From Lachnospiraceae bacterium (GTDB taxonomy: Bacteria; Bacillota; Clostridia; Lachnospirales; Lachnospiraceae), in contig JAFSTN010000043.1 in the NCBI GenBank assembly GCA_017450485.1, positions 1 through 62,277 on the forward strand: a DNA stretch of 62,277 nucleotides. The letters run 5' to 3'. Shown one piece after another: positions 12,378-28,868 of this stretch (within the stretch, counting starts at the first letter, position 1; each line of letters begins with the position of its first letter). Under the pieces are notes generated by a model, which was not told where the DNA came from, did no database searches, and saw only the letters and a list, made by a program, of their open reading frames with translations. Position numbers and translations under genes: made by a program.

Positions 12378-13530
12378 TGTAAGTTCATCGGCCGTGCCGG
12401 TCAGAGGCAGGGCTCTGATAGCCATGAGCGGCGGAGTGGACTCGTCGGTGGCCGCAGCCTGTATGCAGCGTGACGGATATGAGTGTATCGGTATCACGAT
12501 GCAGCTCTATGACAATGCGACCGTATACGGAGATAGCACACAGGCGGCATGCGATCGTACTTCAAACGGCAGAACATGCTGCTCTCTGGTTGATACGGAA
12601 GATGCGAAGCGGGTATGCGAGAACCTGGGCATAGACCATTACACGGCGAATTTCCGTGAGGCATTCGGAGAGTGCGTGATCAGGAAGTTCACGGACAGCT
12701 ACAGCCGGGGCATCACTCCAAATCCATGTATAGATTGCAACAGATATCTGAAGTTCGACCGGCTGATGAAGCGTGCGGAAGAACTGGGATGTGATACCGT
12801 GGTGACCGGGCATTATGCCAGAGTCATAATAAATCCCGAAACCGGCGAATATGAGCTTCACAAGGGTATGGATCCCTCTAAGGATCAAAGCTATGTCCTG
12901 TATATGCTGAGTCAGGAACAGCTGTCTCACATCAGATTCCCCATAGGCGAGCTCAACAAAGATGAGACGAGGCGGATAGCGGATGAATACGGATTTGTGA
13001 ACTCACACAAGCCGGACAGTCAGGATATATGTTTTATACCCGACGGTGATACACGGGGATTCTTAAGGAGACAGGGTGTGGAATGTGAGCCCGGAAGCTT
13101 CGTAACGGAGAACGGGGAGTTCCTCGGTGAACACACGGGAATATGTGACTATACCATAGGTCAGCGCAAAGGACTCGGTATACCCGCACAGCATCCATGG
13201 TATGTTAAGAAGATCGATCCCGAAATGAATGAGATCATACTGTCTGATAATGATGCGCTTTTCGGCCGTGAATTGAGAGCTGTGGATGTGTGTTGGACAT
13301 ATGCGGCCGGTAAGCCCGCTTCCGCTGAGATCAGATGTAAGGCACGTATCAGGTACCATCATCGGGAGGCGGATGCGGCGGTTTACATAACACAAAGCTC
13401 CGGCACCGATGCACGGCCGGCAGACAGTGTCAAAGTGGTATTTGATGAGCCTCAACGCGCGATCACACCCGGACAGGCGGTTGTTTTCTATGACGGTGAC
13501 AGAGTTCTCGGCGGAGGGACTATCGTATGA
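12370..13530 (+). CDS. mnmA: tRNA-specific 2-thiouridylase MnmA
   Basis: 386 residues. MnmA adds sulphur to U34 of tRNA-Lys, -Glu and -Gln, using ATP and a persulfide donor. The PP-loop SGGVDSSVAA lies near residue 19, the first catalytic cysteine in NPCIDCNRYLKFD, the tRNA-binding part in GHYARV and KDQSYVLYML, and the second catalytic cysteine in DSQDICFIPDGD. The family signature IGQRKGLGI follows, and the C-terminal beta-barrel ends with VVFDEPQRAITPGQAVVFYDGDRVLGGGTI. ATG 12370 has GAGAGAGG just upstream; an earlier in-frame ATG at 12331 would add unconserved residues. It overlaps the kinase-like gene and, by ATGA, the cyclase gene downstream. Confidence 0.97.
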   Translation: MTDVSSSAVPVRGRALIAMSGGVDSSVAAACMQRDGYECIGITMQLYDNATVYGDSTQAACDRTSNGRTCCSLVDTEDAKRVCENLGIDHYTANFREAFGECVIRKFTDSYSRGITPNPCIDCNRYLKFDRLMKRAEELGCDTVVTGHYARVIINPETGEYELHKGMDPSKDQSYVLYMLSQEQLSHIRFPIGELNKDETRRIADEYGFVNSHKPDSQDICFIPDGDTRGFLRRQGVECEPGSFVTENGEFLGEHTGICDYTIGQRKGLGIPAQHPWYVKKIDPEMNEIILSDNDALFGRELRAVDVCWTYAAGKPASAEIRCKARIRYHHREADAAVYITQSSGTDARPADSVKVVFDEPQRAITPGQAVVFYDGDRVLGGGTIV

Positions 13531-15329
13531 CGAACAGTAAACTGGTACATATCATTGTGATGGCGGTGGCGGCGGTACTGGTATTCATACTGACGATGAC
13601 CGACGCGCTGTATGCGCCCGATGCATTTCTGACAGACAAACTGTATACCAGACTGTCCGGACCGAACAGCAGGATCATCATAGTGGGCATAGATGAGGAG
13701 ACTCTCGGTGAGTACGGCAACTTCACTTTGTGGTCAAGAGAAAAGACTGCCGAGCTGCTTGAGCTTCTGTACAGCGATCCGGAAAATGCACCTGCCGTAG
13801 TTGGCATGGATCTGCTTTTCACCGAACCGTACGATGAGGAAACAGATGCTCATCTAGCCTCTGCGGCGGCACTTGCCGGCGGAAATATAGTCAGCGGTTC
13901 TCATATCGTATACCGCGGTCAGGTGGAGACCGATGAAAGCGGTAAGAGATATTATAATTCCGAGCATATCGATCGCATAGAGATGCCCATAGAAGGACTG
14001 GCTGACGTCACTACAGCGGGATTCACAAATGCATGTGTGGCGAAAGACGGTTATGTCAGATATGCTATGAACACCATAGTCACTCCCGACGGAGGAGAGC
14101 AGGACGGTTTCGCATATGCGGTATATAAGCTCTATGCTGAGAGCAGAGGCGAAGATGTATATGTGCCCGATAAGCAGAGCAACGGCCTCTTCCAGTTCAT
14201 GTATTCCGGCAAATCCGGCGAGTATTCCAAGGTTTCCTTCAGAGCGGTGCTGGCCGGAGAAGTCCCCGCCACGGCATTTAAGGATGCCATAGTACTCATC
14301 GGCGCTTATGCTCCCGGCATGCAGGACGATTATCAGCCCGCATCCGACCGTGATACGTCCATGTACGGCGTGGAGAACCATGCCAATGTCATACAGGCAT
14401 ATATGCAGCATAAGACCATGACCGCTGTAAACCGGTGGCTGGCGGCAGTCATAGCTGCACTGATCATCATTCTTTTCCTTGCTCTGACGCAAAAAACCGG
14501 TCTTTGGCCGGGACTGATCGCATCTGCGGCAGTGGGAGTGATCTGCACTCTTGCAGGCAGACTTCTGGCCGCTCACGGTCACTATATTCCTCTCATATAT
14601 GTGCTGTTGTTCCTGGTGATCGCGGATGCATATCTGATCGTCGGCAAGTATGTGATAGAGAAGATCAGACGCAGACATACGTTGGATGTGTTTAAGAAAT
14701 ATGTGGCTCCGCAGGTAGTGGATGAACTGTCCCGAAGCGGTGATTTCGAACTTAAGCTCGGAGGGGAGAAACGGCATATCGCGGTTCTCTTCATCGATAT
14801 CAGAGGATTCACCACCATGTCCGAGAGTTTGGATCCCGTGCAGGTGGTGGAGATACTGAACGACTATCTGGCGCTGGTTACCGATTGTGTGCTGTCAAAC
14901 AGCGGTACGCTGGATAAGTTCATCGGGGATGCTGCGATGGCGGTGTTCAATGCTCCTTTTGATCTGGATGACTATGTATATAAGGCCGTGAAGACCGCAT
15001 GGGATATAAACAGCAGATCAAAGCCCCTCGAGGAATCCCTATTGGAAAGATTCGGTAAGGGCGTTAAATTCGGTATAGGTGTCAACTGCGGTGATGCGGT
15101 CGTGGGTAATATAGGATGCGATTTCCGCATGGATTACACTGCTATCGGCGATACGGTAAATACGGCAGCCAGACTGGAGGCAAATGCCGGTGCAGGTGAG
15201 ATCTATATCAGTGAGGAAGTACTGAATGCTCTCGGAGACAGAGTTAAAGCGGATCTGGTCGGAGATATACCGCTTAAGGGTAAGAGTAATAAGATCAATG
15301 TCTATACTGTGACAGAATTGGAGGCCTGA
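13527..15329 (+). CDS. CHASE2-domain class III adenylate cyclase-like protein
   Basis: 600 residues. One membrane helix (about 7-24), an extracytoplasmic CHASE2 sensor (about 30-290, beginning RIIIVGIDEETLGEYG), about three more helices (300-375), then a class III cyclase domain (about 400-590). Catalytic features are present: metal aspartates in VLFIDIRGF and FIGDAAMAVF, the base-selecting lysine in TLDKFIGD and aspartate in DYTAIGD (the pair typical of adenylate cyclases), and asparagine and arginine in TVNTAARLE. It should make cAMP in response to an external signal. It is translationally coupled to mnmA (ATGA overlap), an unrelated function, and is followed 1 base later by a FecR-domain gene, a pairing seen in other CHASE2 cyclases. 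Confidence 0.92.
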   Translation: MTNSKLVHIIVMAVAAVLVFILTMTDALYAPDAFLTDKLYTRLSGPNSRIIIVGIDEETLGEYGNFTLWSREKTAELLELLYSDPENAPAVVGMDLLFTEPYDEETDAHLASAAALAGGNIVSGSHIVYRGQVETDESGKRYYNSEHIDRIEMPIEGLADVTTAGFTNACVAKDGYVRYAMNTIVTPDGGEQDGFAYAVYKLYAESRGEDVYVPDKQSNGLFQFMYSGKSGEYSKVSFRAVLAGEVPATAFKDAIVLIGAYAPGMQDDYQPASDRDTSMYGVENHANVIQAYMQHKTMTAVNRWLAAVIAALIIILFLALTQKTGLWPGLIASAAVGVICTLAGRLLAAHGHYIPLIYVLLFLVIADAYLIVGKYVIEKIRRRHTLDVFKKYVAPQVVDELSRSGDFELKLGGEKRHIAVLFIDIRGFTTMSESLDPVQVVEILNDYLALVTDCVLSNSGTLDKFIGDAAMAVFNAPFDLDDYVYKAVKTAWDINSRSKPLEESLLERFGKGVKFGIGVNCGDAVVGNIGCDFRMDYTAIGDTVNTAARLEANAGAGEIYISEEVLNALGDRVKADLVGDIPLKGKSNKINVYTVTELEA

Positions 15330-15330
15330 T

Positions 15331-16821
15331 ATGAAATTAAAAGACTTCTTGGGTACTACAAAAGGAAAAGTTACAGTCATTGGAGGAGCAGCGGTAGTGG
15401 CCGTGGGGATCGGCGTGGCTGTACTCCTTCAGGGGAGCGGCTACCGGAGCATATCGGTGGAAGCTCTCACAGGTACCGTCAATGTAGCGGGTACGCACAA
15501 CAACGGTGCTGCTTACGTGGGGGAACAGCTTGAAGACGGCGATGATGTGACCGTTACCGCCAACTCGGATCTGACCATGTGCATGGACGGCGATAAATAC
15601 GTGTATGCCGATGCGAATACGCATTTCTCGCTGAGTGCGGATCAGAGTAAGGATTCCAGCCGGATAAAGATAAATCTGGATGCCGGAAGCGAGCTCAATG
15701 AGCTTCAGAATGCACTGGGTGCAAATGATTCATACGAGGTGGATACACCGAACTCAACGATGGCCGTCAGAGGTACGAAGTTCAGAGTGACCGTATATAC
15801 CGGAGATGACGGATATAAATATACGCTGCTCGAGGTATACGAGGGCACCGTATTCGTCAGACTCAAGACCGAGACGGGGAATTATAACGGTGTGGAGCGT
15901 GACTTCACCGCAGGCGAGAGCGGACTGATCAGAGGAAATGATACACTTTCGGAGTTCGTGACAGTGGATAAGGCCGAGCTTGCCGAGGTATCCGCTGCCG
16001 AGGAAGAGGTATTGCTACTGCACTATGAGAGTCTGCCCGAGGATGGAGTGGAGAGGCTTATAGAACTGTTGAAGAACGGAGAGATCAGAACCGCAGGTGA
16101 AGAGCCCGCAGCCGGAGAGACCGCTGAAGAGACTGTCGGAGAAGCTGACGAAAACTCCGATGATGACGAGGATAAGACGGCAGCGGCCGACGCAGCAGAC
16201 GACGGATCCGGTGACGGTGATCCGACTGAGCAGACCGGCGCATCCGATGACGGTGATGCGGCGGAAGATACAGCAGACACGACCGCAGCAGCTCCCAATG
16301 CCGTAACATCGAAGCCCGCACATGTACACACTGCGGGAGACTGGCAGGTACAGACGGCAGCTACATGTCAGGCTGAGGGTACCAGAGTACGGGTATGCAG
16401 CAGCTGCGGTGCCGTGATCAGTACCGAGCCGATCGCAAAGATAGATCATATACCGGGTGACTGGGTTACATGGCAGTATCCTTCATGCGGTGTAGCCGGC
16501 GGTAAGAGCAGATACTGTACCATGTGCGGAGCGGCGCTGGCTACAGAGGATATACCGGCTCTTTCACACAACTGGGGAGCTTATGGCGATGACGGAACCA
16601 GGCAGTGTTCGATATGCGGTGCCGTGGAAGGCGGCGGACCGGTGAAGGATACCGGCAGCGAATCGCAGCCGGAAGGCACACATGAGCATTCCGGCGAAAG
16701 CACAAGTGCGCAAGCTACGGTATACTCCGACCCCTGTCCGCAAGGCGGAAATCATAATTGGCAGAATCTACCCACCGCCAGTGGATTTAGATGTTCAAAG
16801 TGTGGCGCGACTAAGCCGTGA
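15331..16821 (+). CDS. Membrane-anchored FecR-domain protein with Cys-rich C-terminal repeats
   Basis: 496 residues. An N-terminal membrane anchor (about 16-34) is followed by a FecR-like beta domain (about 42-200; VEALTGTVNVAG, NSTMAVRGTKFRVTVYTG, LLEVYEGTVFV). Residues ~235-325 are a highly acidic Asp/Ala/Glu linker. The last ~170 residues hold repeated units of the form HxxGxW...C...C-x2-CG...H (CSSCGAVI, CTMCGAAL, CSICGAVE, CSKCGATK), resembling zinc ribbons or surface repeats. Only 1 base separates it from the CHASE2 cyclase, so it probably senses or presents an outside ligand to that protein. A strong terminator follows. Confidence 0.88.
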   Translation: MKLKDFLGTTKGKVTVIGGAAVVAVGIGVAVLLQGSGYRSISVEALTGTVNVAGTHNNGAAYVGEQLEDGDDVTVTANSDLTMCMDGDKYVYADANTHFSLSADQSKDSSRIKINLDAGSELNELQNALGANDSYEVDTPNSTMAVRGTKFRVTVYTGDDGYKYTLLEVYEGTVFVRLKTETGNYNGVERDFTAGESGLIRGNDTLSEFVTVDKAELAEVSAAEEEVLLLHYESLPEDGVERLIELLKNGEIRTAGEEPAAGETAEETVGEADENSDDDEDKTAAADAADDGSGDGDPTEQTGASDDGDAAEDTADTTAAAPNAVTSKPAHVHTAGDWQVQTAATCQAEGTRVRVCSSCGAVISTEPIAKIDHIPGDWVTWQYPSCGVAGGKSRYCTMCGAALATEDIPALSHNWGAYGDDGTRQCSICGAVEGGGPVKDTGSESQPEGTHEHSGESTSAQATVYSDPCPQGGNHNWQNLPTASGFRCSKCGATKP

Positions 16822-16838: not shown

Positions 16839-16885
16839 ACCGCGGGATCTGAACATTGTTTCGGATCCCGCGGTTGCATTTTTTT
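16839..16885 (+). terminator. Terminator after the FecR gene
   Basis: A perfect 11-bp stem (ACCGCGGGATC with GATCCCGCGGT), a 14-base loop and a T7 run at 16879-16885. Confidence 0.93.
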
Positions 16886-16931: not shown

Positions 16932-19469
16932 ATGGAAAACGAAGAAGTTAAACTCGGAAACAGCGCAATGCTGAAGATTTGCGCTTTCATAGTAGACAAA
17001 CGTAATCTGTTTTTTCTGATATACGCGATCCTTGCAATTTTTTCGGTCATAGCCAAGGGATGGGTGGAGGTTGAGAATGACCTCGCCTTCTACCTCCCGG
17101 CTACGTCCGAGACCAGACTGGGACTGGATCTCATGGAGGAGCAGTTTACCACTTACGGCACAGCCAATGTCATGGTGGCAAATGTTTCCTACTCCCAGGC
17201 ACAGGATATACAGAAGGATATAGAAGCAATGGAAGGAGTATTCTCCGCAGACGTGGATGATACTCCTGATCATTATGCGAACGGTTCGGCCCTGATATCA
17301 GTGACATTTGATTATGATGAGGATGATGATCAGTGTCTGGTATGTCTCGATGCGCTTAAGGATTATCTGGAAGGATATGATTATTATCTGACCACGAGTC
17401 TGGGTGATACGCAGTCCGAACTGATCGGAGAGGAGATGAACACGATCTCGATCATCGTCGTGTTCGTCGTGGTGGGCGTGCTCTTACTCACATCACAGGC
17501 TTATGCCGAGGTTCCGGTTCTGCTCATTACGTTTGGTTCTGCTGCGATAGTTCAGATGGGATCGAACTTCGTATTCGGCAAGATATCATTTGTATCGAAT
17601 TCCGTGACGATAGTTCTGCAGCTTGCCCTGTCCGTGGACTATGCGGTCATATTCCTGAACAGATATAAGGAGGAGCATAAACTCCTGCCTCCGCGTGAAG
17701 CGACTATCATCGCTCTGTCGAAGGCAATCCCCGAGATCACCGGCAGCTCCATGACAACCATAGGCGGTCTGGTCGCGATGATGTTCATGCAGTATAAGAT
17801 GGGCGCCGATATGGGTATCGTGCTCATCAAATCCATTATCTTAAGTCTGATATCCGTATTCCTTCTGATGCCGGGTATCATCATGGTATTTGCGAAGCTT
17901 ATGGATAAGACACAGCATAAGAACTTCGTACCTGATATTCCTTTTGTGGGCAAGTTTGCCTATCATACCAGATTCTTCATAGCTCCTCTTTTCGGTGTGG
18001 CTATCGTGGCAGGATATCTGATCTCATCCAAATGCCCTTATGCATACGGATATTCGCTGATCACACCTCCTCTGACCAACGCCGTGCAGGAAGCACAGGA
18101 TATACAGGATGAAACCTTCGGGAAGAAAAATATGCTCGCGTTGGTAGTTCCTTCCGGTGATTATGAATCCGAGGCCAAGCTGCTCAAGATACTGGAGGCA
18201 AGAGCAGAAGTGGAATCCACTACGGGGCTTGCCAATACGGAAGCTATAGGAGGATATACGCTGACTGACCGGCTGACACCCAGACAGTTCTCCGAACTTC
18301 TGGATCTGGATTACGAGGTGGCAGAGCTGGTATATGCCGCATATGCGGTCAATGACGAGGATTATGCAAAAGCGATCAACGGACTGGCCAATTACCGTGT
18401 GCCTTTGATCGATATGTTCATGTTTGTCTATGAGGAAGTGGATGAGGGATATGTGACTCTGGATGATGAGCTGATGGAGAAACTACAGGATGCTTACCGG
18501 ATGATGAATTTCGCCAGACAGCAGCTTCAGGGTGAAGATTATTCACGTATGCTGGTCTATCTGACGCTGCCGCAGGAATCCGAAGAAACTTTTGATTTCC
18601 TACAGGAGATACACACCATTGCCGGGAATTATTACGATGCGGATAAGATATATGTGGTCGGTGAGTCGGTCAGCCAGTATGACCTGAAGAAATGCTTTGC
18701 CAGAGATAATACGGTCGTGAGTGTCGTATCCATTCTGGCGGTTCTGGTCGTATTGCTGTTTACATTTAAGTCGGCAGGCATGCCCGTGCTTCTGATCGCT
18801 GTCATACAGGGCAGTATATGGATCAATTTCTCGTTCCCGACCATAGCGAACGAACCGCTTTTCTTCCTGGGTTATCTGATCGTATCGTCCATCCAGATGG
18901 GTGCGAATATCGATTATGCGATAGTCATAGCGAGCCGATATACGGAGCTGAGAGGCACCATGGTACGTAAGGAGGCGATCATCAATACGATGAACCTGTC
19001 GTTCCCCACGATCATCACATCAGGCACCATGATGGCGGTAGCCGGTACCCTGATCGGAAAGATGACTTCGGATTGTGCGATATACGGTATAGGCAAGTGC
19101 CTGGGCCGTGGCACGATCATATCCATATTTATCACGATGTTTGTTTTGCCACAGATACTTCTGGTGGGAGATAAGATCATCGAACTGACTGCTTTTGTCA
19201 TGAATATGCCCATACAGAACAGGCAGACGACGGGTGTCATGCGTATCGACGGAGCCGTGCGGGGGCATATCGACGGAAATATAGTAGGCACGATGCATGC
19301 GGTCGTACGCGGATCCATAAGTGCATTTATAGATAATAACAACATCACGGAGCTTAGCAATGATCCGGAAGCGGAGATCGGTGTTGACGGAAAGACTTCG
19401 GTTGAAGATGCAGTGCCTGCTGAAGATGAAGGGACCGTGGATGTTGACGGCGGGGAGGTGAACTCATGA
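16932..19469 (+). CDS. MMPL/RND-family exporter
   Basis: 845 residues with the two-fold RND layout: a first helix (about 25-45), an external domain (45-165), five or six helices (170-335), another helix near 345, a second external domain (370-585) and a final helix group (590-760). Each half has the conserved charged helix start (QLALSVDYAVIFLNRYKEE and SSIQMGANIDYAIVIASRYTE), as in MmpL-type lipid exporters driven by proton flow. The ~85-residue cytoplasmic tail holds Gly/Asp/Val repeats (GAVRGHIDGNIVGTMHAVVRGSI) that look beta-helical. No clear ribosome binding site precedes 16932, so the start is a little uncertain. Its stop overlaps the GLUG protein start (ATGA). It probably exports a lipid or surface polymer with its neighbours. 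Confidence 0.88.
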   Translation: MENEEVKLGNSAMLKICAFIVDKRNLFFLIYAILAIFSVIAKGWVEVENDLAFYLPATSETRLGLDLMEEQFTTYGTANVMVANVSYSQAQDIQKDIEAMEGVFSADVDDTPDHYANGSALISVTFDYDEDDDQCLVCLDALKDYLEGYDYYLTTSLGDTQSELIGEEMNTISIIVVFVVVGVLLLTSQAYAEVPVLLITFGSAAIVQMGSNFVFGKISFVSNSVTIVLQLALSVDYAVIFLNRYKEEHKLLPPREATIIALSKAIPEITGSSMTTIGGLVAMMFMQYKMGADMGIVLIKSIILSLISVFLLMPGIIMVFAKLMDKTQHKNFVPDIPFVGKFAYHTRFFIAPLFGVAIVAGYLISSKCPYAYGYSLITPPLTNAVQEAQDIQDETFGKKNMLALVVPSGDYESEAKLLKILEARAEVESTTGLANTEAIGGYTLTDRLTPRQFSELLDLDYEVAELVYAAYAVNDEDYAKAINGLANYRVPLIDMFMFVYEEVDEGYVTLDDELMEKLQDAYRMMNFARQQLQGEDYSRMLVYLTLPQESEETFDFLQEIHTIAGNYYDADKIYVVGESVSQYDLKKCFARDNTVVSVVSILAVLVVLLFTFKSAGMPVLLIAVIQGSIWINFSFPTIANEPLFFLGYLIVSSIQMGANIDYAIVIASRYTELRGTMVRKEAIINTMNLSFPTIITSGTMMAVAGTLIGKMTSDCAIYGIGKCLGRGTIISIFITMFVLPQILLVGDKIIELTAFVMNMPIQNRQTTGVMRIDGAVRGHIDGNIVGTMHAVVRGSISAFIDNNNITELSNDPEAEIGVDGKTSVEDAVPAEDEGTVDVDGGEVNS

Positions 19470-22400
19470 AAAAGAGAGTTGCATCCCTGATACTATGTGT
19501 GATGGTCGTCAGCTCCGGGTTCATGACAGACATCCATGCAGAGACCCCGGACGCCGGGAGCTACGCCGAAGCACGCGCAGATGCGAGCGAAACCGTGACC
19601 ACAGGCACTCAGACCGATGCTCTGGAAAATGTATCCGACCCGGATGCCGATATAGCAGCCGATGTTGAGGCACTGGTGGAGACGGACTGGGAGTACATAT
19701 CGATATCCGATGCTGATGACCTGATCGAACTGTCCCGTAACTGCATGCTCGATACATGGTCAAGGAATAAGCATGTCACTGTGGTAAACGATATTTCCCT
19801 GCTTGGCAAGGACTTTGAAGGTATACCGACTTTCGGCGGAATATTCGATGGTCAGGGCCACAGCATCAGCGAGCTGAACATAGATGGTAACGTATCGTAT
19901 GCCGGCCTTTTTTCATATGTGCAGAAGGATGCGGTCATCCGAAATCTGCATGTATCCGGGTCGGTAGTGCCCCAGGGAGAGCAGACCATGATCGGGGGCA
20001 TCGCAGGTGATAACAGCGGAGTGATAGCGGAATGCAGCTTTGAAGGTATAGTGAGCGGAAATGATTACGTTGGCGGCATCGCGGGCATGAACGAGCTCAC
20101 AGGTACGATCTCCGGATGCGAAAGCACGGGGTATATACGCGGAGTTCATTTTACCGGAGGTATCGCCGGAGAAAACATGGGCAATATCACAGGGTGTACG
20201 AATAATGCTCCGGTCAACACCTCAAATACCGATACCACCATCACCGATGAATCACTTAAGAACCTGCAGGCGATCATGGATATGTTGAATAATGTCCGTG
20301 GTGAAAATGATGATGAAGCCGGAACTTCATCCACCGTATCGGATGCGGGAGGTATCGCCGGATTATCCATAGGTATCATCAGTCATTCAACGAATCACGG
20401 TACGATCGGATATGAGCATGTGGGATATAATATCGGCGGTATCGCAGGCAGACAGTCCGGGTACATTTATTCATGTATCAATAACGGACAGATACTCGGG
20501 CGTAAGGATGTCGGAGGTATCACGGGTCAGGCGGAACCTTATATAACCATAGATTTCAGTTCGGATATAGCATATCAGCTGTCAGAGTCGATCGCCAAGC
20601 TTCATGATCTGGTTACCGTGACGCTTAAGGATACCCGCGGACAGTCGGATGTTCTCACCAACAGGCTCTCTGTTATACAGCAGTACACTACAGGTGCGAT
20701 CACGGATGCGAAATACCTCGCAGAGAACACCGTAGACTTCGCAAACGGAGTAAGCGGAGCTGCCTCGGAAGCATTCTCCAGAGTGGATTATATCCTGGCT
20801 GAATCATCCAAACAGGACGGGGCGCTTGATCAGACATCTTATGCGGGAACGAATATAGGCAGTGCGATGGAGCATACACGGGAAGCTGTTGAGGATCTCG
20901 ATATCGGGAAGTATATGAGCGACAGCGATAAGCAGCTCTACAATGATTCCAAGAATACGATAGAGAAGTCAACGGTAGAGTATAAGGGGTATTATTCGAC
21001 CGGGTTAAAGGGTGCATATAATCAATTCATTTCGGACCATGATGAAGGAAGAGGACTCATATATATTCGTGACGATGGGAAAGCATATGATAACACGGAT
21101 ATAGGTACTGCTTCAGCTGCCGGACACTGGGAATATACTGATGGGACGAAATTCCCCAAGACGGACGATGAAGCTGATATGCAGCTGGATGCTGCTGCAA
21201 AAGCCGCAGCTCCCGCTGCAGCTGATAAATATGCCCAGACTCAATACACAATCCAACATCCGGGATCTACCTATGTACAGGATGTGGCTGATGCTTCCGC
21301 CACTATATCGGGAACTCTGCTTAAGTATACGGATATCATGGCTGAAGAGACGAGGGGCGATGCGATAGATGCGGTAAACTCTCTGCAGGCTGCGGCATCA
21401 AACCTGACAACGGCAGGACAGCAGACAAAAGGCATAGTAAGCGAGCTGGCAGGTCGCGGCGCGATCACATTCCCCACATTGTCTGCGGATTATAGATCAC
21501 ATACGACCAGTCTTGCAGATAATCTGCAGGTCATGAACGATAATTTCGGTTTGCTCAATCAGGAACTCAATGGGGCCACGTACACCCTTACGGATGATCT
21601 GCAGGCAGTATCCGATCAGTTCAATGACATCCTGATGCTCTATACAGATGCTCTGGACGGAGTGCTGGAAAAGGATTATACGGCGATAATCACGGATGAC
21701 TCACTTGCCGAGGCGGAGACCTGCACCGATGCTACCATAGCTGACAGCATCAACTACGGAGTCATAAACGGAGATTTAAACGTGGGCGGTATCGCCGGCA
21801 CCATGGCTATCGAATATGACTATGATATGGAGAGTGATATCACCGGTATCAGAGATTCGAAGCTTAACACATCGTATATAACCAAATGTGTGCTCAGAGA
21901 CGACAGAAACTATGCCGAGGTCCGCAGTGTGAAGAGCTATGCGGGCGGTGTATGCGGTCTGCAGGAGATGGGTACGCTTCTCCGGGGCGAGAACTACTCA
22001 TCCGTCAGCTCGGATTCGGGTGATGATGTGGGAGGAATCGCCGGATCATCCTTATCCTATATCGTATCTTCTTTTTCCAGAGGAATAATTTCGGGCAATA
22101 ACTATCTCGGCGGTATAGTCGGCGACGGCACGCATATCAGAGACAGCGTGTCGATCGTTGATATCGATGCATCCGGCAGCAGAAGCGGAGCTATAGCCGG
22201 ACATATCAAGGATGAAGGCGAGGTAAGGAATAACTATTTCGTAAGTGACAGTCTGGCCGGTATCGATCGTGTCAGCTACAGTCTCAAGGCAGAGCCGATA
22301 ACCTATGCCGAGCTGATGAACGGGAACCCAAACGTTCCTTCGGATTTCGACCACCTGACGATCACATATTTGCTGAATGATGAAGACAGTGATGAACCTG

Positions 22401-23242
22401 TACAGATATCCAAAGTCAGAGTCGGCTACGGTGACCGGATCACCGGCGAAGAATATCCGTCCGTGGAGCCGAGAGATGGTTTCTATATTGAATGGGATAA
22501 GCCCTCGATAGAATGTGTTTCCACTGACACCACGGTTACCGCGAATTATAAGAGATATCTGACCACCCTATCCGACGCGACCGGAGAGGCAGGTGCACAT
22601 CAGTCGGAAATACTGGTCGACGGCGCATTTAAAGAAGGAGATTCTCTGGTAGTAGCCAGACAGATAAACTATGACAGTGAGGATCCTTCTACACTTGCCG
22701 CGTACGAGACCATAGACCTGATCATTCCCGATGACGGAGCAAACGTGCATCAGATCAGATTCAGGCCGGATACGGTATACGGTGATAAGGTCGGAGAGGA
22801 TTTCGTGCTCCGAGTGGAGGATGGAAGCGGACTTACGGAATTGACGCGGACCGGCTCGCTGGGTGGATATTATACATATGAGCTGACCGGCAATGAAGCC
22901 AGAATCATTCTGGATGTTTCAAGTATGGAAAAGAATGATATAATGAACATAGTGCTCATTGCTCTGGCAGGAACGGCAGGCGTAAGTCTTATCGCTGTGA
23001 TCATATGGGCTGTCACCAGGCGTAAGAACCGTAAGAAGATACGCCGTGCTGTGCGTCATATGAAGCGTGATATCAGGACGCGTATAGACAATAAGGAGCA
23101 GATGTTTGTTCCCGATGATGCGCAGACCGAGGATGCCCGAACTGAAGATAAGCCGACCGAAGATATACAGCCTGAAGATAAGCAGACCGATGAGCCGGAA
23201 ACCTGTGTTGAATCTTCCGGTGATAATGGGGATGGATCTTAA
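19466..23242 (+). CDS. Giant surface-anchored GLUG-repeat protein
   Basis: 1258 residues. A signal peptide (1-26, ending HAE), an acidic spacer, then GLUG-type beta repeats (about 110-350; units like GGIAGDNSGVIAECSFEGIVSGNDYVGGIAG). Residues ~355-745 are a long helical, Ala/Gln/Asp-rich region probably forming coiled coils, reminiscent of the helical hairpin in YhgE/Pip-type exporter partners. A second GLUG set (about 755-930), a beta-rich region, and one membrane helix (about 1158-1183) precede a basic, then acidic, Glu/Asp/Pro/Thr-repeat cytoplasmic tail. It should span from membrane to surface. Coupling by ATGA to the MMPL gene suggests it is that exporter's extracellular partner. The function is not known. 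Confidence 0.85.
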   Translation: MKKRVASLILCVMVVSSGFMTDIHAETPDAGSYAEARADASETVTTGTQTDALENVSDPDADIAADVEALVETDWEYISISDADDLIELSRNCMLDTWSRNKHVTVVNDISLLGKDFEGIPTFGGIFDGQGHSISELNIDGNVSYAGLFSYVQKDAVIRNLHVSGSVVPQGEQTMIGGIAGDNSGVIAECSFEGIVSGNDYVGGIAGMNELTGTISGCESTGYIRGVHFTGGIAGENMGNITGCTNNAPVNTSNTDTTITDESLKNLQAIMDMLNNVRGENDDEAGTSSTVSDAGGIAGLSIGIISHSTNHGTIGYEHVGYNIGGIAGRQSGYIYSCINNGQILGRKDVGGITGQAEPYITIDFSSDIAYQLSESIAKLHDLVTVTLKDTRGQSDVLTNRLSVIQQYTTGAITDAKYLAENTVDFANGVSGAASEAFSRVDYILAESSKQDGALDQTSYAGTNIGSAMEHTREAVEDLDIGKYMSDSDKQLYNDSKNTIEKSTVEYKGYYSTGLKGAYNQFISDHDEGRGLIYIRDDGKAYDNTDIGTASAAGHWEYTDGTKFPKTDDEADMQLDAAAKAAAPAAADKYAQTQYTIQHPGSTYVQDVADASATISGTLLKYTDIMAEETRGDAIDAVNSLQAAASNLTTAGQQTKGIVSELAGRGAITFPTLSADYRSHTTSLADNLQVMNDNFGLLNQELNGATYTLTDDLQAVSDQFNDILMLYTDALDGVLEKDYTAIITDDSLAEAETCTDATIADSINYGVINGDLNVGGIAGTMAIEYDYDMESDITGIRDSKLNTSYITKCVLRDDRNYAEVRSVKSYAGGVCGLQEMGTLLRGENYSSVSSDSGDDVGGIAGSSLSYIVSSFSRGIISGNNYLGGIVGDGTHIRDSVSIVDIDASGSRSGAIAGHIKDEGEVRNNYFVSDSLAGIDRVSYSLKAEPITYAELMNGNPNVPSDFDHLTITYLLNDEDSDEPVQISKVRVGYGDRITGEEYPSVEPRDGFYIEWDKPSIECVSTDTTVTANYKRYLTTLSDATGEAGAHQSEILVDGAFKEGDSLVVARQINYDSEDPSTLAAYETIDLIIPDDGANVHQIRFRPDTVYGDKVGEDFVLRVEDGSGLTELTRTGSLGGYYTYELTGNEARIILDVSSMEKNDIMNIVLIALAGTAGVSLIAVIIWAVTRRKNRKKIRRAVRHMKRDIRTRIDNKEQMFVPDDAQTEDARTEDKPTEDIQPEDKQTDEPETCVESSGDNGDGS

Positions 23243-24134
23243 ACCGGTCTCTTTAGATGATATCGAAATCATATATCAGTACACCTCCCTTTACGGGGAG
23301 GGGTGCTGTCAGCATTCACCCGTCAGTATGTGGTCCCTGTATGAGAAGTACGGAGACAGTTTTTGCATTCAGGACGGCTTTCTTTATGTGTGCAGAGAGC
23401 ATCTGTGCGATGACGGCTACCGTGTCTATCTGGCTCCGTTCGGTGCGGGAGATATTGCGGGTGCTTTTGAGAATATCCTGTCGGATGCTCATTCCCATGG
23501 AAAAAAAGCCAAATTCATAACTCTGACCGAAAAGTATGTCAATATACTGAATGGATCCTTTCCGGATAAATTTGAATGTATAAATGACCGGGATCTGGCT
23601 GAGTATATCATCAGTACCGAAACCATGCGGGATTTTCCCGGTAAGATCCATGCACGCAGACGCACGGAGATACGGTCGTTCTGGCGGGATTTCGGTGACA
23701 GGACCGAGGTGAGCGAGATGACAGCCGGTGACCGGGAGGAAGTGCTGGACTATGCCTCTGAGTGGGTGGAGAAATACTCCGAGACACATGATGAGGAAGC
23801 ACTTGAACGGGAACTGAAATGTATCCAGAAGCAGATCTGGAATTACGATAAACTTGGTATCTCAGGCACGGTCATCAGGATAGACGGTAATGTAAAGGCG
23901 TTCTGCTATGGCGTAGGTCTTAATGACGACTACTATGACGTACTCATAGAGAAAGGCGACAGGGAGTATCCCGGCATTTACAGAGTTCTCAGACAGGAGT
24001 CTACGAAACTGAATGTGACCGGATATAAATATGTCAATTTTGAAGAAGATGTGGGAGTGCCGGGCCTCAGACGACTGAAGGAGTCTTACGGGCCGGAGTT
24101 CCTTATCGGAAAGTACAGGGTGACCGAAAAGTGA
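23226..24134 (+). CDS. DUF2156 / LPG-synthase C-terminal-like acyl- or aminoacyl-transferase
   Basis: About 302 residues resembling the cytosolic DUF2156 domain of MprF-type lysylphosphatidylglycerol synthases, a double GNAT-like fold. Recognisable elements are YRVYLAPFGAGD, a helix with MRDFPGKIHARRRTEIRSFWRDFGD, and the end TGYKYVNFEEDVGVPGLRRLKESYGPEFLIGKYRV, which is diagnostic of the family. There is no membrane flippase domain, so it is a stand-alone soluble transferase that may move an amino acid from a tRNA to a lipid or other acceptor. The start is uncertain between ATG 23226 and 23232, both inside the GLUG gene. The stop overlaps the GTG of the phosphatase gene. Confidence 0.8.
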   Translation: MGMDLKPVSLDDIEIIYQYTSLYGEGCCQHSPVSMWSLYEKYGDSFCIQDGFLYVCREHLCDDGYRVYLAPFGAGDIAGAFENILSDAHSHGKKAKFITLTEKYVNILNGSFPDKFECINDRDLAEYIISTETMRDFPGKIHARRRTEIRSFWRDFGDRTEVSEMTAGDREEVLDYASEWVEKYSETHDEEALERELKCIQKQIWNYDKLGISGTVIRIDGNVKAFCYGVGLNDDYYDVLIEKGDREYPGIYRVLRQESTKLNVTGYKYVNFEEDVGVPGLRRLKESYGPEFLIGKYRVTEK

Positions 24135-27100
24135 AAAACAGAGTCAAATACATGGCTACGCTGGGACTGATCTTTATCACGTTTCTGGCTGCAATACAGT
24201 ATGTTTTTCTGACGAACGTACCGGATTCGGTATCTACGTTCTGTTTCGTCTGCATAACAAATGTCATCGGTCTTGTGGTTATGTGTGCGGCGAGCTTCAG
24301 GAAGATCCGCCGGATCAGGAAGTCAACGATCCTGAAGGGAGCTTTTTTTGCCGTTCTTCTGACCGGATTTAACATTTTCGTTCTGCTCGGGTCGCGAAGC
24401 ATGGATTCGGTAGTGGTCTCGAGTGTAGTCAGTCTGTATTTTGTTTTTGTAACTCCGTTGCTCCTGTTGCTGCGCAAAAAGGTCAATTTCCTTTCAAGCA
24501 TAGCGACCGTAATGGCGGTGATCGCTTTGCTGCTGATGTTCGGCGGAAATACGGAGGCACTTTTTTCGTCAACGAAGGTCATTTATCTTATTCTGGCCGA
24601 TCTGTTCTTCGCAGCATACGTAGTCGGCGTATCCATTCTGGGCGAGAATGAAGACAGCGCAGCCCTTACCATTTCGCAGATGCTGTTTTCCGTGCTATTT
24701 GCATTTATAGCATGGACAGTCGAAGTGGTTGCGGGCAAAGCAGCCATGTCTCTCCCGACGGATAAGCTCTTCTGGATCAGCGTCATCTTCATGGGAATAT
24801 TCATACGTGCCGTGTACGGACTGTTGCAGATCAAATGTCAGAAGCATGTCTCCGCGATAGGCGCATCGTTGATATTCTCAACCGAGATCGTCATCACGAT
24901 GATCATGAACCCCATATTGAGTAAGATGCTGGGAACCTCTTATAATCCGGCAACTCCGTATCAGGTGATCGGAGCGATCCTCCTGATCATAGCGAATCTC
25001 CTTGTCGATGAGACGATCACATCCAGGCTTGGATATGACGGTATGGATTCGTCATCAGTATCCAAAAAGATGGTGATGAATACGCTCACATTCTCCATGA
25101 TTACTCTGGCACTGTCCGCGATCATCAGTTTCTCGGCCATATATCTGATACGTGATTCGGCAGTGTCCGGCTCCACAAGACTGGGAGAGGATGCATCCGA
25201 TATCAGTACTACTGCGATGATAGAGGAACTTGAGCGTAATACTTCCAGACAGGTCGAGGATAAAGCAAAGCTTGCCGAGCAGAAGCTTGCCGCATATTCG
25301 GATGCTGTACAGTATGCGGCTTCCTATGCGAATACACTGTATGCGGCACCTGATGACTATCCTGCCAGACCGGTGGATATTCCCCGTGCGGAGAATGAGG
25401 GCGTCTGGACCATGCAGATGCTGCTGGCCAATAAACTCATACAGTATGAGGATATCAAACCCGATAATGAACTCCTTGGCAATATGGAAAATGTATTTGA
25501 GCCGATCGTACGTAAGCATGAAAACATCGTGACCATATATTTGGGAACGGCTGACGGTCTGATGATAAGTTATGACAGGGATTCACAGCTGGCGGCGGGT
25601 GAAGAGAATCGGTACTACGAGTACAGGAAGCCCGATAACTGGTATAACCTCGGTATGACAAGCGGGGAATGCCGGTTCACCGACACATATTGGGACAGCT
25701 ACGGACGCGGACTGACCATCACCTGCTGTGCTCCGTTCTATGGGGCTGACGGAAGTTTCATCGGCGTGATCGGTATGGATATATTGATGAAAGACTTAAA
25801 TGAGTCCATGGTCAATGACGGTATCGTGGATCCGACCGTAGCCACTATGATCGATGAAAAAGGCAATGTTATAGCCAGTAAAGATCTGGATCCGGATGCA
25901 CAGGAGACATATAACATCTTTTCAACCGAATCCGAGAGTATTCTGAAACCGATCGGGCAGCTGATAATTGAGCAGGAAGACGGAATAATGAAGACCGGTG
26001 AAGATGAAAGAGCTGTCTATGTGTCATATGCGACGATAGATTCCACAGGTTGGCGACTGTGCATCATCAGCCCGGTATCCAATGTGATCGTACCGGCGAA
26101 TGAGATACGTGAGAGCATTGATTCCAATACCGATTCGGTGGTCTCATCGGTTTTAATGGGAGTTCTGAGAGTTATTCAGAACTGTCTTGTATTGATCGGT
26201 GTGATCCTGCTGCTGATCACATTTACGGCGGGACGTTTCTCCAAAAAGATATCCGACCCGCTGAAGCAGCTGGAGAGGGATGTACGCAATATAAGCGACG
26301 GAGATCTGGATTATCGTACTCAGGTCAGCACCGATGACGAGATAGGTACACTGGCTCAGTCCTTTAATGAAATGACGGATTCTCTCCAGCATTATATCAG
26401 CGATCTGAAAGAAGTCACGGCGAAAGAGGAGAGGATCGCCAGTGAACTGAGCGTGGCGAACAATATACAGGCGAGCATGCTGCCGCGTAATTTTGACGAG
26501 ATCAATGCATCTCACCGGGAGTTCGACCTGTATGCGACCATGGATCCGGCCAAAGAGGTCGGAGGAGACTTCTACGATTTCTTCCTTGTGGACGACGATC
26601 ATCTGGCTCTGGTCATAGCCGATGTATCCGGTAAAGGTGTTCCGGCGGCACTGTTTATGATGATTTCCAAGATGCTGATCAGGAACCGGGCGGAGATGGG
26701 CGGTACACCCGCGGAGGTCCTGTCTTATGCGAATGATAAGCTCTGCGAAGGCAATGAACTGGAGTACTTCGTTACGGTATGGATGGCGATCATAGAGCTT
26801 TCCACCGGAAAAGGAATAGCTGCCAATGCCGGCCATGAGCATCCTGCAATCAGACGTGCAAACGGTGAGTGGGAGCTGGTCAAATACCGTCATTCACCTG
26901 CAGTGGCCACAATGGAAGGACTGACTTTCAAGGAGCATGAATTTGAGCTTGATCCCGGGGACAGCCTGTATGTTTATACAGATGGTGTTCCCGAAGCGAC
27001 TGATGCCGGGAACGGACAATTTGATACCGACAGAATGCTGTCCGCACTGAACAAGGATCCGAAAGCATCTCCGGAGGCTTTGCTCGCCGCGGTCAAGGCG

Positions 27101-27190
27101 GATATAGATGAATTCGTCGGCGATGCCGAGCAGTTTGACGATATCACGATGCTGGCTATTGACTGGCATGGAGCGAACCATGATCGATAA
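24131..27190 (+). CDS. EamA-Cache-HAMP-SpoIIE phosphatase fusion
   Basis: 1019 residues. The first ~300 form about ten helices of a drug/metabolite (EamA) transporter with the internal duplication. A helix (about 316-340) leads to an external Cache-like sensor (345-660; IVTIYLGTADGLMISYD, GMDILMKDL), then a helix (675-700), a HAMP domain (700-755) and a coiled linker. The C-terminal PP2C/SpoIIE phosphatase (about 785-1015) keeps its metal-binding motifs: EVGGDFYDFF, IADVSGKGVPAALFM, YTDGVPEA and FDDITML. It should dephosphorylate a protein on Ser/Thr in response to an outside signal. No STAS or anti-sigma partner lies nearby. GTG start, overlapping the previous stop (GTGA). Confidence 0.9.
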   Translation: MKNRVKYMATLGLIFITFLAAIQYVFLTNVPDSVSTFCFVCITNVIGLVVMCAASFRKIRRIRKSTILKGAFFAVLLTGFNIFVLLGSRSMDSVVVSSVVSLYFVFVTPLLLLLRKKVNFLSSIATVMAVIALLLMFGGNTEALFSSTKVIYLILADLFFAAYVVGVSILGENEDSAALTISQMLFSVLFAFIAWTVEVVAGKAAMSLPTDKLFWISVIFMGIFIRAVYGLLQIKCQKHVSAIGASLIFSTEIVITMIMNPILSKMLGTSYNPATPYQVIGAILLIIANLLVDETITSRLGYDGMDSSSVSKKMVMNTLTFSMITLALSAIISFSAIYLIRDSAVSGSTRLGEDASDISTTAMIEELERNTSRQVEDKAKLAEQKLAAYSDAVQYAASYANTLYAAPDDYPARPVDIPRAENEGVWTMQMLLANKLIQYEDIKPDNELLGNMENVFEPIVRKHENIVTIYLGTADGLMISYDRDSQLAAGEENRYYEYRKPDNWYNLGMTSGECRFTDTYWDSYGRGLTITCCAPFYGADGSFIGVIGMDILMKDLNESMVNDGIVDPTVATMIDEKGNVIASKDLDPDAQETYNIFSTESESILKPIGQLIIEQEDGIMKTGEDERAVYVSYATIDSTGWRLCIISPVSNVIVPANEIRESIDSNTDSVVSSVLMGVLRVIQNCLVLIGVILLLITFTAGRFSKKISDPLKQLERDVRNISDGDLDYRTQVSTDDEIGTLAQSFNEMTDSLQHYISDLKEVTAKEERIASELSVANNIQASMLPRNFDEINASHREFDLYATMDPAKEVGGDFYDFFLVDDDHLALVIADVSGKGVPAALFMMISKMLIRNRAEMGGTPAEVLSYANDKLCEGNELEYFVTVWMAIIELSTGKGIAANAGHEHPAIRRANGEWELVKYRHSPAVATMEGLTFKEHEFELDPGDSLYVYTDGVPEATDAGNGQFDTDRMLSALNKDPKASPEALLAAVKADIDEFVGDAEQFDDITMLAIDWHGANHDR

Positions 27191-27506
27191 AGACAGTTTT
27201 CATATATTGAATTTCGTAAAAAAAGAAGAGTATTCCGGTTCAATGGACGGCATGAGATATATGATCAGACGTGTGCCGGGTGAGAAGCCGGAGCCGGATG
27301 CGGAGGTGCCGGATCGTATATGTGTCATTATTTGGCCGGAACCGCTGGGGCTTTTCTCCACACCCGATGAGCTGAAGACGACAGAATACTTTACACTGGA
27401 TGAAGACGGTATATCCGACGTGGCGGACTGGTTGAATTCACAGTATTTCGACAGACAGCCGGAGTGGGATGCCGCGAAGAGGAGAGGTTGTTCTTTTGAA
27501 AATTAA
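27180..27506 (+). CDS. Small conserved-looking protein of unknown function
   Basis: 108 residues, no signal peptide or membrane segment. It is rich in Asp, Glu and Pro, with a central ICVIIWPEPLGLFSTPDELK stretch and a C-terminal helix (ISDVADWLNSQYF). I recognise no family with confidence. ATG 27180 follows GGAG by 7 bases and lies inside the phosphatase gene; its end overlaps the acyltransferase by 11 bases. This tight packing argues that it is a working member of the operon, perhaps an adaptor or substrate of the phosphatase. Confidence 0.75.
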   Translation: MIDKDSFHILNFVKKEEYSGSMDGMRYMIRRVPGEKPEPDAEVPDRICVIIWPEPLGLFSTPDELKTTEYFTLDEDGISDVADWLNSQYFDRQPEWDAAKRRGCSFEN

Positions 27507-28833
27507 GGTAAAAGAAAAGGCATACAGCGAAGTTGCCGCGATGACACCGCGGATGCATATGCGACCTGTAAAGCAGAGCGCATTGCTTCGTCATACGATA
27601 AGTACGCTGTCTGAAGCCGAACTTCTGGCTGTTGGATTTAAATGTGAGACCAACGGGATGGAGAAACTGGGTGCGGACGAACCGGCACTTTTTCTGATGA
27701 ATCATTCCTGCTTCACGGATCTGGAGATCGCATTCAGGCTCCTGGCGAACAGGCAGTATCATATTGTATGCACCAACGACGGTCTGATCGGCAAGGCAGG
27801 TCTTTTCTCACGGGTGGGCTGTATACCGGCGAAGAAGTTCATTTCCGATATGTATCTGATCAAGGATATGAAATATGCGGTGGATGAGCTGAACAGTTCG
27901 ATACTTATGTATCCGGAAGCCAGTTACTCATTTGACGGCACGACCACACCGCTGCCCGACAGCATAGGTAAGTTCATCAAGATGCTCCGCATCCCCGTGG
28001 TCATGATACGCACCAAGGGAGCTTTTCTGCGCGATCCGCTCTATAACTGCCTGCAGAAGAGAAAAGTGAAGGTGACGGCCACCGAGACATATCTGCTGTC
28101 ACAGGAGGATATCGCACACAAGAGCGCGGATGAGATCAATGCCGTGATACAGGGCGCATTTGAGTATGATCATTTCAAGGAGCAGTATGAGAACGGAGTG
28201 ATCGTGGATGAGCCCTTCAGAGCCGACGGCCTCCATCGGGTCCTGTATAAATGTCCTGTCTGCCGGTCCGAGGGGCAGATGCACGGAGAGGGTATATATA
28301 TATCCTGTGGGCATTGCGGATCCCGGTGGGAACTGACGGAAAACGGGAAGCTTGAGAGACAATACGAGGACACCGATGGTGACGGGACAGTCGATGCCGA
28401 ACTTGAATCGGTGGATATCAGACGTGGTGTGCCCGTGAACGATGCGGTGAAGAAATTTGAGTTCGTGCCCGAATGGTATGCTTGGGAAAGGGAATGCGTG
28501 CGTCGTGAGATCCGGGCAGGAGAGTACGTGATGGATCTGGATGTCGAGATTTATATGATGGTGGATTTCGATTCACTATATCATGTGGGGAGTGGAAGAC
28601 TCATACATGACAATGACGGATTTACACTGACAGGATGTAACGGTGAACTTGACTATCAGCAGAGTCCAAAGCATTCGTACAGTCTCTATGCAGATTACTA
28701 CTGGTATGAACTCGGAGATATGATCGGTATCGGAGATGCGCAGAAGCAGTTCTACTGCATACCGAAGGATCAGGATGGGGCGATCGTAGCCAAAGCAAGG
28801 CTCGCCGCCGAAGAGATGTATAAACTGAATTGA
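27496..28833 (+). CDS. PlsC-like acyltransferase with zinc-ribbon insert
   Basis: About 445 residues. The N-terminal domain has the acyltransferase HX4D box in NHSCFTD (near 69-75), a GLFSRVGCIPAKKF segment and the YPEASYSFDG box near 138, as in 1-acylglycerol-3-phosphate acyltransferases. A rubredoxin-like zinc ribbon (CPVC near 253 and CGHC near 272) and a ~150-residue beta-rich C-terminal domain follow, giving nearly twice the usual length. The probable start is TTG 27496, 8 bases after GAGGAGAGG; ATG 27469 is an alternative but overlaps that site. It is the last gene of the operon and probably acylates a lipid or surface polymer precursor at the inner face of the membrane. Confidence 0.85.
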   Translation: MKIKVKEKAYSEVAAMTPRMHMRPVKQSALLRHTISTLSEAELLAVGFKCETNGMEKLGADEPALFLMNHSCFTDLEIAFRLLANRQYHIVCTNDGLIGKAGLFSRVGCIPAKKFISDMYLIKDMKYAVDELNSSILMYPEASYSFDGTTTPLPDSIGKFIKMLRIPVVMIRTKGAFLRDPLYNCLQKRKVKVTATETYLLSQEDIAHKSADEINAVIQGAFEYDHFKEQYENGVIVDEPFRADGLHRVLYKCPVCRSEGQMHGEGIYISCGHCGSRWELTENGKLERQYEDTDGDGTVDAELESVDIRRGVPVNDAVKKFEFVPEWYAWERECVRREIRAGEYVMDLDVEIYMMVDFDSLYHVGSGRLIHDNDGFTLTGCNGELDYQQSPKHSYSLYADYYWYELGDMIGIGDAQKQFYCIPKDQDGAIVAKARLAAEEMYKLN

Positions 28834-28840
28834 TATAGGT

Positions 28841-28868
28841 ATCGGTGATCATAATGCGGATCACCGAT
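28841..28868. terminator. Inverted repeat between convergent genes
   Basis: ATCGGTGATC pairs with GATCACCGAT around an 8-base loop, between the acyltransferase and the HAD gene, whose stop codon lies in the right arm. There is no T-run, so termination is plausible but unproven. Confidence 0.5.

Follow-up and report, generated by a model that had tools for sequence, protein, structure and literature searches.

A conserved gene pair of DUF2156 and EamA-Cache-HAMP-SpoIIE proteins that resembles a partner-switching module within a composite gene run of a Lachnospiraceae bacterium

The window analyzed in this study is a stretch of 62,277 nucleotides from a Lachnospiraceae bacterium (GenBank assembly GCA_017450485.1), which makes up a complete contig (JAFSTN010000043.1, here G000:C28) of a 2.62 Mb draft genome of 49 contigs. 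The labels G, L, and C denote genomes compared, loci retrieved, and contigs, respectively. Six overlapping open reading frames (ORFs), all on the plus strand, were mapped at 16932-28833 of the window. Two of these appeared to be the novel core of the run: a gene for a stand-alone DUF2156 (LPG_synthase_C) tandem-GNAT protein of 302 amino acids (23226-24134, plus strand) and a gene for an EamA-dCache-HAMP-SpoIIE fusion of 1019 amino acids (24131-27190, plus strand). The pair is conserved, its components are repeatedly fused, and STAS and RsbW-like genes occur in linked loci and elsewhere in the window genome. Together with the domain make-up and predicted folds, these observations lead us to favor, with moderate confidence, a two-gene transporter-coupled partner-switching module embedded in a composite run.

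Linkage of DUF2156 with a transporter-phosphatase

Four Pfam domains were found in the window phosphatase, at E-values of 6.6e-12 for EamA (PF00892), 3.1e-20 for dCache (PF02743), 1.5e-14 for HAMP (PF00672), and 1.7e-45 for SpoIIE (PF07228). The EamA match included two stretches, and hence the transporter core looks complete. The acidic motifs of SpoIIE (GGDFYD, ADV-GKG, and the C-terminal DD) were invariant across 31 aligned proteins.

Loci related to the DUF2156 gene were retrieved with two peptide patterns, one of which held the signature CQHS, and the best 80 matches comprised 42 module-type and 38 generic loci, a pattern-based sample whose counts do not represent an unbiased census. EamA was found directly after DUF2156 in 32 of the 42 module-type loci, where it shared one ORF with Cache-HAMP in 15, formed a separate gene in 16, and was cut by a contig end in one. 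An adjacent EamA or any SpoIIE was found in none of the 38 generic loci, one of which (L281) carries an unrelated EamA about 5 kb from DUF2156. On these counts, the association of DUF2156 with the EamA-Cache-HAMP-SpoIIE phosphatase proposed in an earlier, sequence-only reading of the window was borne out as a linked pair. In L248 and L261, the phosphatase was present and EamA was not recognizable.

Where EamA is separate, the gene order is DUF2156, EamA, a membrane protein of about 300 amino acids, and Cache-HAMP-SpoIIE, except for the split form of Hungatella (L271), where the phosphatase gene comes first. Alignment A4 covered 11 of the 16 split loci, with L246, L258, L265, L259, and L271 left out. 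Going by their record titles, carriers of the module included Lachnospiraceae, Oscillospiraceae, Synergistota, and one metagenome-assembled genome (MAG) labelled Spirochaetales, and many came from rumen or gut samples; one culturable carrier is Butyrivibrio sp. YAB3001 (L232). Within a sample of 200 genomes of the family, DUF2156 and EamA were adjacent in G000, G012, G177, and G192, while G163 had DUF2156 alone. Among the loci, L234 and L235 are near copies, and L229 is probably the same record as G006:C56, as are probably L240, L251, and L271 with G012, G163, and G192, respectively.

No description of an EamA-SpoIIE or DUF2156-EamA unit was found among the papers listed by searches of the open-licence PMC literature, and DUF2156 was never paired directly with EamA in searching. 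DUF2156 and the fused phosphatase look like a conserved bacterial signaling module.

Subfamily and probable chemistry of the DUF2156 protein

The window DUF2156 protein matched PF09924 as its sole Pfam family (4.1e-28, 98.7 bits against a cut-off of 27.5). Stand-alone DUF2156 genes are common, being found in 118 of the 200 family genomes, and the relatives of the window protein among the named matches were from Lachnospiraceae, the nearest on a MAG contig from red deer. The CQHS signature occurred in 39 of the 42 module-type loci and in none of the 38 generic ones, a comparison in which one of the two retrieval patterns itself contained CQHS. A DUF2156 tree of 49 rows (the window, 15 fused, 16 split, eight without EamA, L240, and eight of the 38 generic loci, minus L248 and L261) placed the CQHS subfamily apart from the generic rows, with a support of 100/99 on the dividing branch. 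The fused rows sat among the split ones, which required two changes; a single origin of the fused form is still conceivable.

The nearest structure was 2HQY (BT_3689), which matched the module DUF2156 protein over the whole-chain fold and is of similar length. According to the accessible part of PMC10700544, 2HQY holds acetyl-CoA, and a DUF2156 protein of Helicobacter pylori (HPB8_1270) is involved in the lysine acetylation of RNase J. Module-type proteins are set apart from these two by the EamA and SpoIIE neighbors and the CQHS signature counted above, which the generic DUF2156 loci lack. The reported findings speak for an alternative in which the DUF2156 enzyme would acetylate lysines of the partner-switching proteins or of the transporter, with EamA as a membrane sensor and no carrier. 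The fusions of EamA, to Cache-HAMP in a single ORF at 15 loci and to a kinase-like protein at three, also agree with such a sensor. However, no acetylated target is known and the apparently complete transporter core points to a carrier, and we regard this alternative as doubtful, if tenable.

The LPG_synthase_C domain is held in common with MprF, and the sequence-only reading had assigned to DUF2156 the addition of amino acids to lipids. This assignment was weakened by the proximity to 2HQY and by residues S684 and R742, which are reported as relevant for the synthesis of aminoacyl-phosphatidylglycerol in MprF and are not conserved in the module proteins. In alignment A3 (30 rows: the window, 28 of the 42 module loci, and the generic L270), serine occupied the S684 column in one row, with alanine in the window protein, and the R742 column held lysine instead of arginine in all 30. 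When the subfamily was compared by hhalign to a pair of MprF-like sequences, the match was weak (71%, E 3.7e-5, 114 columns). Additionally, the window protein differs from MprF in its lack of a fused N-terminal flippase domain, with a separate EamA instead. A split MprF, where DUF2156 would aminoacylate a membrane lipid, EamA would flip it, and the phosphatase would regulate both, could draw on the common domain and is considered improbable; MprF-like lipid aminoacylation is disfavored by both residues and fold. Stand-alone DUF2156 genes of this kind should hence not be taken as evidence for lipid lysylation, which corrects an easy misreading.

Two further sets among the closest known systems, VlmA/Ady7 and Sbb17/Sba18, belong to natural-product pathways, for which the available parts of the sources name no phosphatase or DMT partner. 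In seven loci (L250, L251, L254, L256, L262, L266, and L267), a DUF2156 gene of the same subfamily without EamA adjoins a gene for about 167 amino acids, located upstream in L267. Its product begins with a Cys-rich CxxCxxCC-like motif, and no Pfam match was found in the one member scanned.

Candidate partner-switching genes and the proposed circuit

STAS genes were found in 12 of the 42 module-type loci and also on contigs of the window genome other than G000:C28, and RsbW-like HATPase_c_2 genes were identified by domain match in linked loci and at G000:C10. The membrane protein of about 300 amino acids in the split lineage is predicted, from a structure model compared by VIA-align, to combine an S-component-like domain with one that resembles RsbW/SpoIIAB; among the papers listed by a literature search, none described a protein of this kind. 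An example is encoded at L247:9828-10676, with relatives.

The phosphatases in descriptions of partner switching are usually soluble or simple membrane proteins. The module looks like such a system in that it resembles RsbU/RsbV/RsbW and SpoIIE/SpoIIAA/SpoIIAB in a PPM phosphatase with conserved acidic motifs and in STAS and RsbW-like genes, which are linked in some relatives and present elsewhere in the window genome. It differs from both systems by a recurrent DMT transporter and GNAT enzyme, by the fusion of the phosphatase to the transporter, and by the joined S-component-like and RsbW-like domains of the split relatives. The N-terminal EamA and the DUF2156 partner distinguish it from SiaA/SiaB/SiaC/SiaD; an identity of the phosphatase with SiaA was rejected at 92.9 bits against a curated NCBIfam cut-off of 700.

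We infer the substrate, transport direction, ligand, phosphatase target, and output of the module as follows. DUF2156 would be a soluble tandem-GNAT acyltransferase-like enzyme that modifies a small molecule, and the EamA/DMT transporter, with its two repeats, would move or sense the product. Ligand binding by dCache or the state of EamA would then switch the SpoIIE-type phosphatase, which would dephosphorylate an RsbV-like STAS protein and so release it for binding to an RsbW-like ATPase. For the window genome, contig C10 would be the source, in trans, of the STAS and RsbW-like proteins, while in the split relatives the membrane protein with the RsbW-like domain is probably the opposing kinase arm. 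Such a module would couple the handling of metabolites directly to switching by phosphorylation, through its transporter-phosphatase fusion, its GNAT enzyme, and the S-component-like and RsbW-like domains paired in relatives. A more ambitious version is a self-contained circuit, in which the product of the GNAT enzyme is an acylated or aminoacylated signal that leaves the cell through EamA, is read outside by the dCache domain of that fused protein, and is reported by SpoIIE through STAS and RsbW, with the S-component-like and RsbW-like kinase of split relatives monitoring a vitamin-like or signal molecule as the opposing arm; we consider this version unlikely.

The proteins encoded at G000:C10 share identities of 64% (STAS), 62% (ATPase), and 43% (a protein of 210 amino acids) with module-linked proteins of Synergistota. 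Among the seven genomes of the genus (G000-G006), the four congeners without the module have the 210-amino-acid cassette adjoining its own Cache-HAMP-SpoIIE protein (724-728 amino acids), while in the three with the module this resident phosphatase is absent without a local trace. The best full-length match elsewhere in the three module genomes was 39%, compared to 48-57% among the four without the module. This pattern fits a window phosphatase that serves the C10 cassette in trans. In the cassette comparison, a STAS gene of G005 was missed by ORF picking, and a HATPase was not seen at the cassette in the stretch fetched for G004. Ahead of the STAS/210-amino-acid cassette on G000:C10, a STAS-domain protein of 625 amino acids is encoded (L329:7301-9178).

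Besides the pattern-based retrieval, several observations weigh against the module interpretation. Of the 42 module-type DUF2156 genes, eight are flanked by no EamA or SpoIIE gene, and no STAS gene turned up in 30 of the 42 loci. The three congeners with the module are closely related sisters, perhaps reflecting one event, and their genomes are only 82-91% complete. A further Cache-HAMP-SpoIIE protein (723 amino acids, G000:C48) is common to all three; it has 39% identity to the resident one and could be the replacement instead. The 210-amino-acid protein is present in all seven congeners, four of them without the module, so the C10 cassette is not module-specific and the tie is weakened. With six SpoIIE matches in the window genome, the assignment of partners is not unique. 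On G000:C48, a Cache-HAMP-SpoIIE gene of 720 amino acids lies close to a SpoIIE gene of 1094 amino acids (L052:2437-9179).

Separable units of the gene run

The earlier proposal was a single six-gene system that would build, decorate, and export a lipid under the control of its own phosphatase. In its favor are the overlapping run and the occurrence of all six genes together in G000 and G003, with five of the six in G006, where GLUG runs off the contig end. The units are separate, however, elsewhere in the genus: in G002, the MMPL, GLUG, small, and PlsC genes are present without DUF2156 or the phosphatase; in G001 and G005, PlsC alone lies between the same flanking genes; and searches of G004 for PlsC and DUF2156 gave no match. 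Outside the genus, the stretches fetched for 29 MMPL loci contained no DUF2156, phosphatase, small, or PlsC gene, and GLUG, PlsC, or the small gene occurred in one of the 42 DUF2156-module loci (L229), which is from the genus of the window. With complete sets in only two of seven genomes, the six-gene system is largely refuted by co-occurrence and retains very little probability, and the run would be a composite of separable units whose grouping is mostly a matter of neighborhood.

The MMPL-type RND transporter (16932-19469, plus strand) matched PF03176 (7.7e-38, 130.7 bits against a cut-off of 20.5); for the HAE3 subfamily TIGR00921, it scored 107.1 bits, below the curated NCBIfam cut-off of 351.9. 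In the 29 relatives outside the genus, all of at least 40% identity (G211, over 40%, lies outside the count), the GLUG gene directly followed MMPL in 28, overlapping it when mechanical ORF starts are used; the exception (L174) is at a contig end. A more distant relative of 27% identity, which is not among the 29 (L182), had no GLUG gene. The GLUG label of the window partner (1258 amino acids; 19466-23242, plus strand) was sustained in part: the protein itself had no match in the Pfam scan, while the Glug motif passed the cut-off in four of six relatives scanned. No match was found in a PDB sequence search up to E = 0.1. The partners mostly have a hydrophobic N-terminus, a C-terminal hydrophobic stretch, and 4-12 GG[IV]AG-like motifs, which suggests anchored proteins that act as accessories to the exporter. 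MMPL and GLUG are a second conserved unit, a separate pair presumably with a role in export, and no description of it was found among the papers listed by searches of the open-licence PMC literature.

The remaining two genes are better seen as local neighbors. The protein of 108 amino acids (27180-27506, plus strand; function unassigned) had been called an orphan, which did not hold, as it has matches in 107 of the 200 family genomes including that of the window. The PlsC-like acyltransferase with a zinc ribbon (27469-28833, plus strand) scored 22.7 bits for PF01553, just below the 23-bit cut-off. Its matches were in 11 of 98 genomes, six of the 11 within the genus. G010 encodes a PlsC/zinc-ribbon relative that forms one protein of 912 amino acids with a cytosine/purine-type permease (L042:8055-10793).

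The overlap of six same-strand genes was confirmed with corrected starts. MMPL and GLUG overlap by 4 bases, and the most likely start of DUF2156 is ATG 23226, which gives a 17-base overlap with GLUG, TTG 23106 being a mechanical ORF start only. DUF2156 and the phosphatase overlap by 4 bases (24131-24134), and the small gene, from ATG 27180, overlaps the phosphatase gene by 11. The acyltransferase starts at either ATG 27469 (overlap of 38) or, given the upstream AGGAGAGG, TTG 27496 (overlap of 11). The terminator scan identified a strong terminator-like hairpin upstream of the run (16839-16874, plus strand; 15 pairs, nine of them G-C, with a T-rich tail). Downstream, inspection revealed a perfect 10-base inverted repeat between convergent genes (28841-28868, no strand assigned; arms 28841-28850 and 28859-28868), at which the scan did not call a T-tailed terminator. 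The convergent downstream neighbors encode a Cof-like HAD hydrolase and an ABC-F-like ATPase, and upstream lie genes for an MnmA-like tRNA thiolase, a CHASE2 cyclase, and a FecR protein. The cyclase and FecR genes lie between MnmA and MMPL at 13527-16821 of the window, and both are absent there in G001, G002, and G005. In G003, the FecR gene is absent and the cyclase is present, 56 bases before MMPL.
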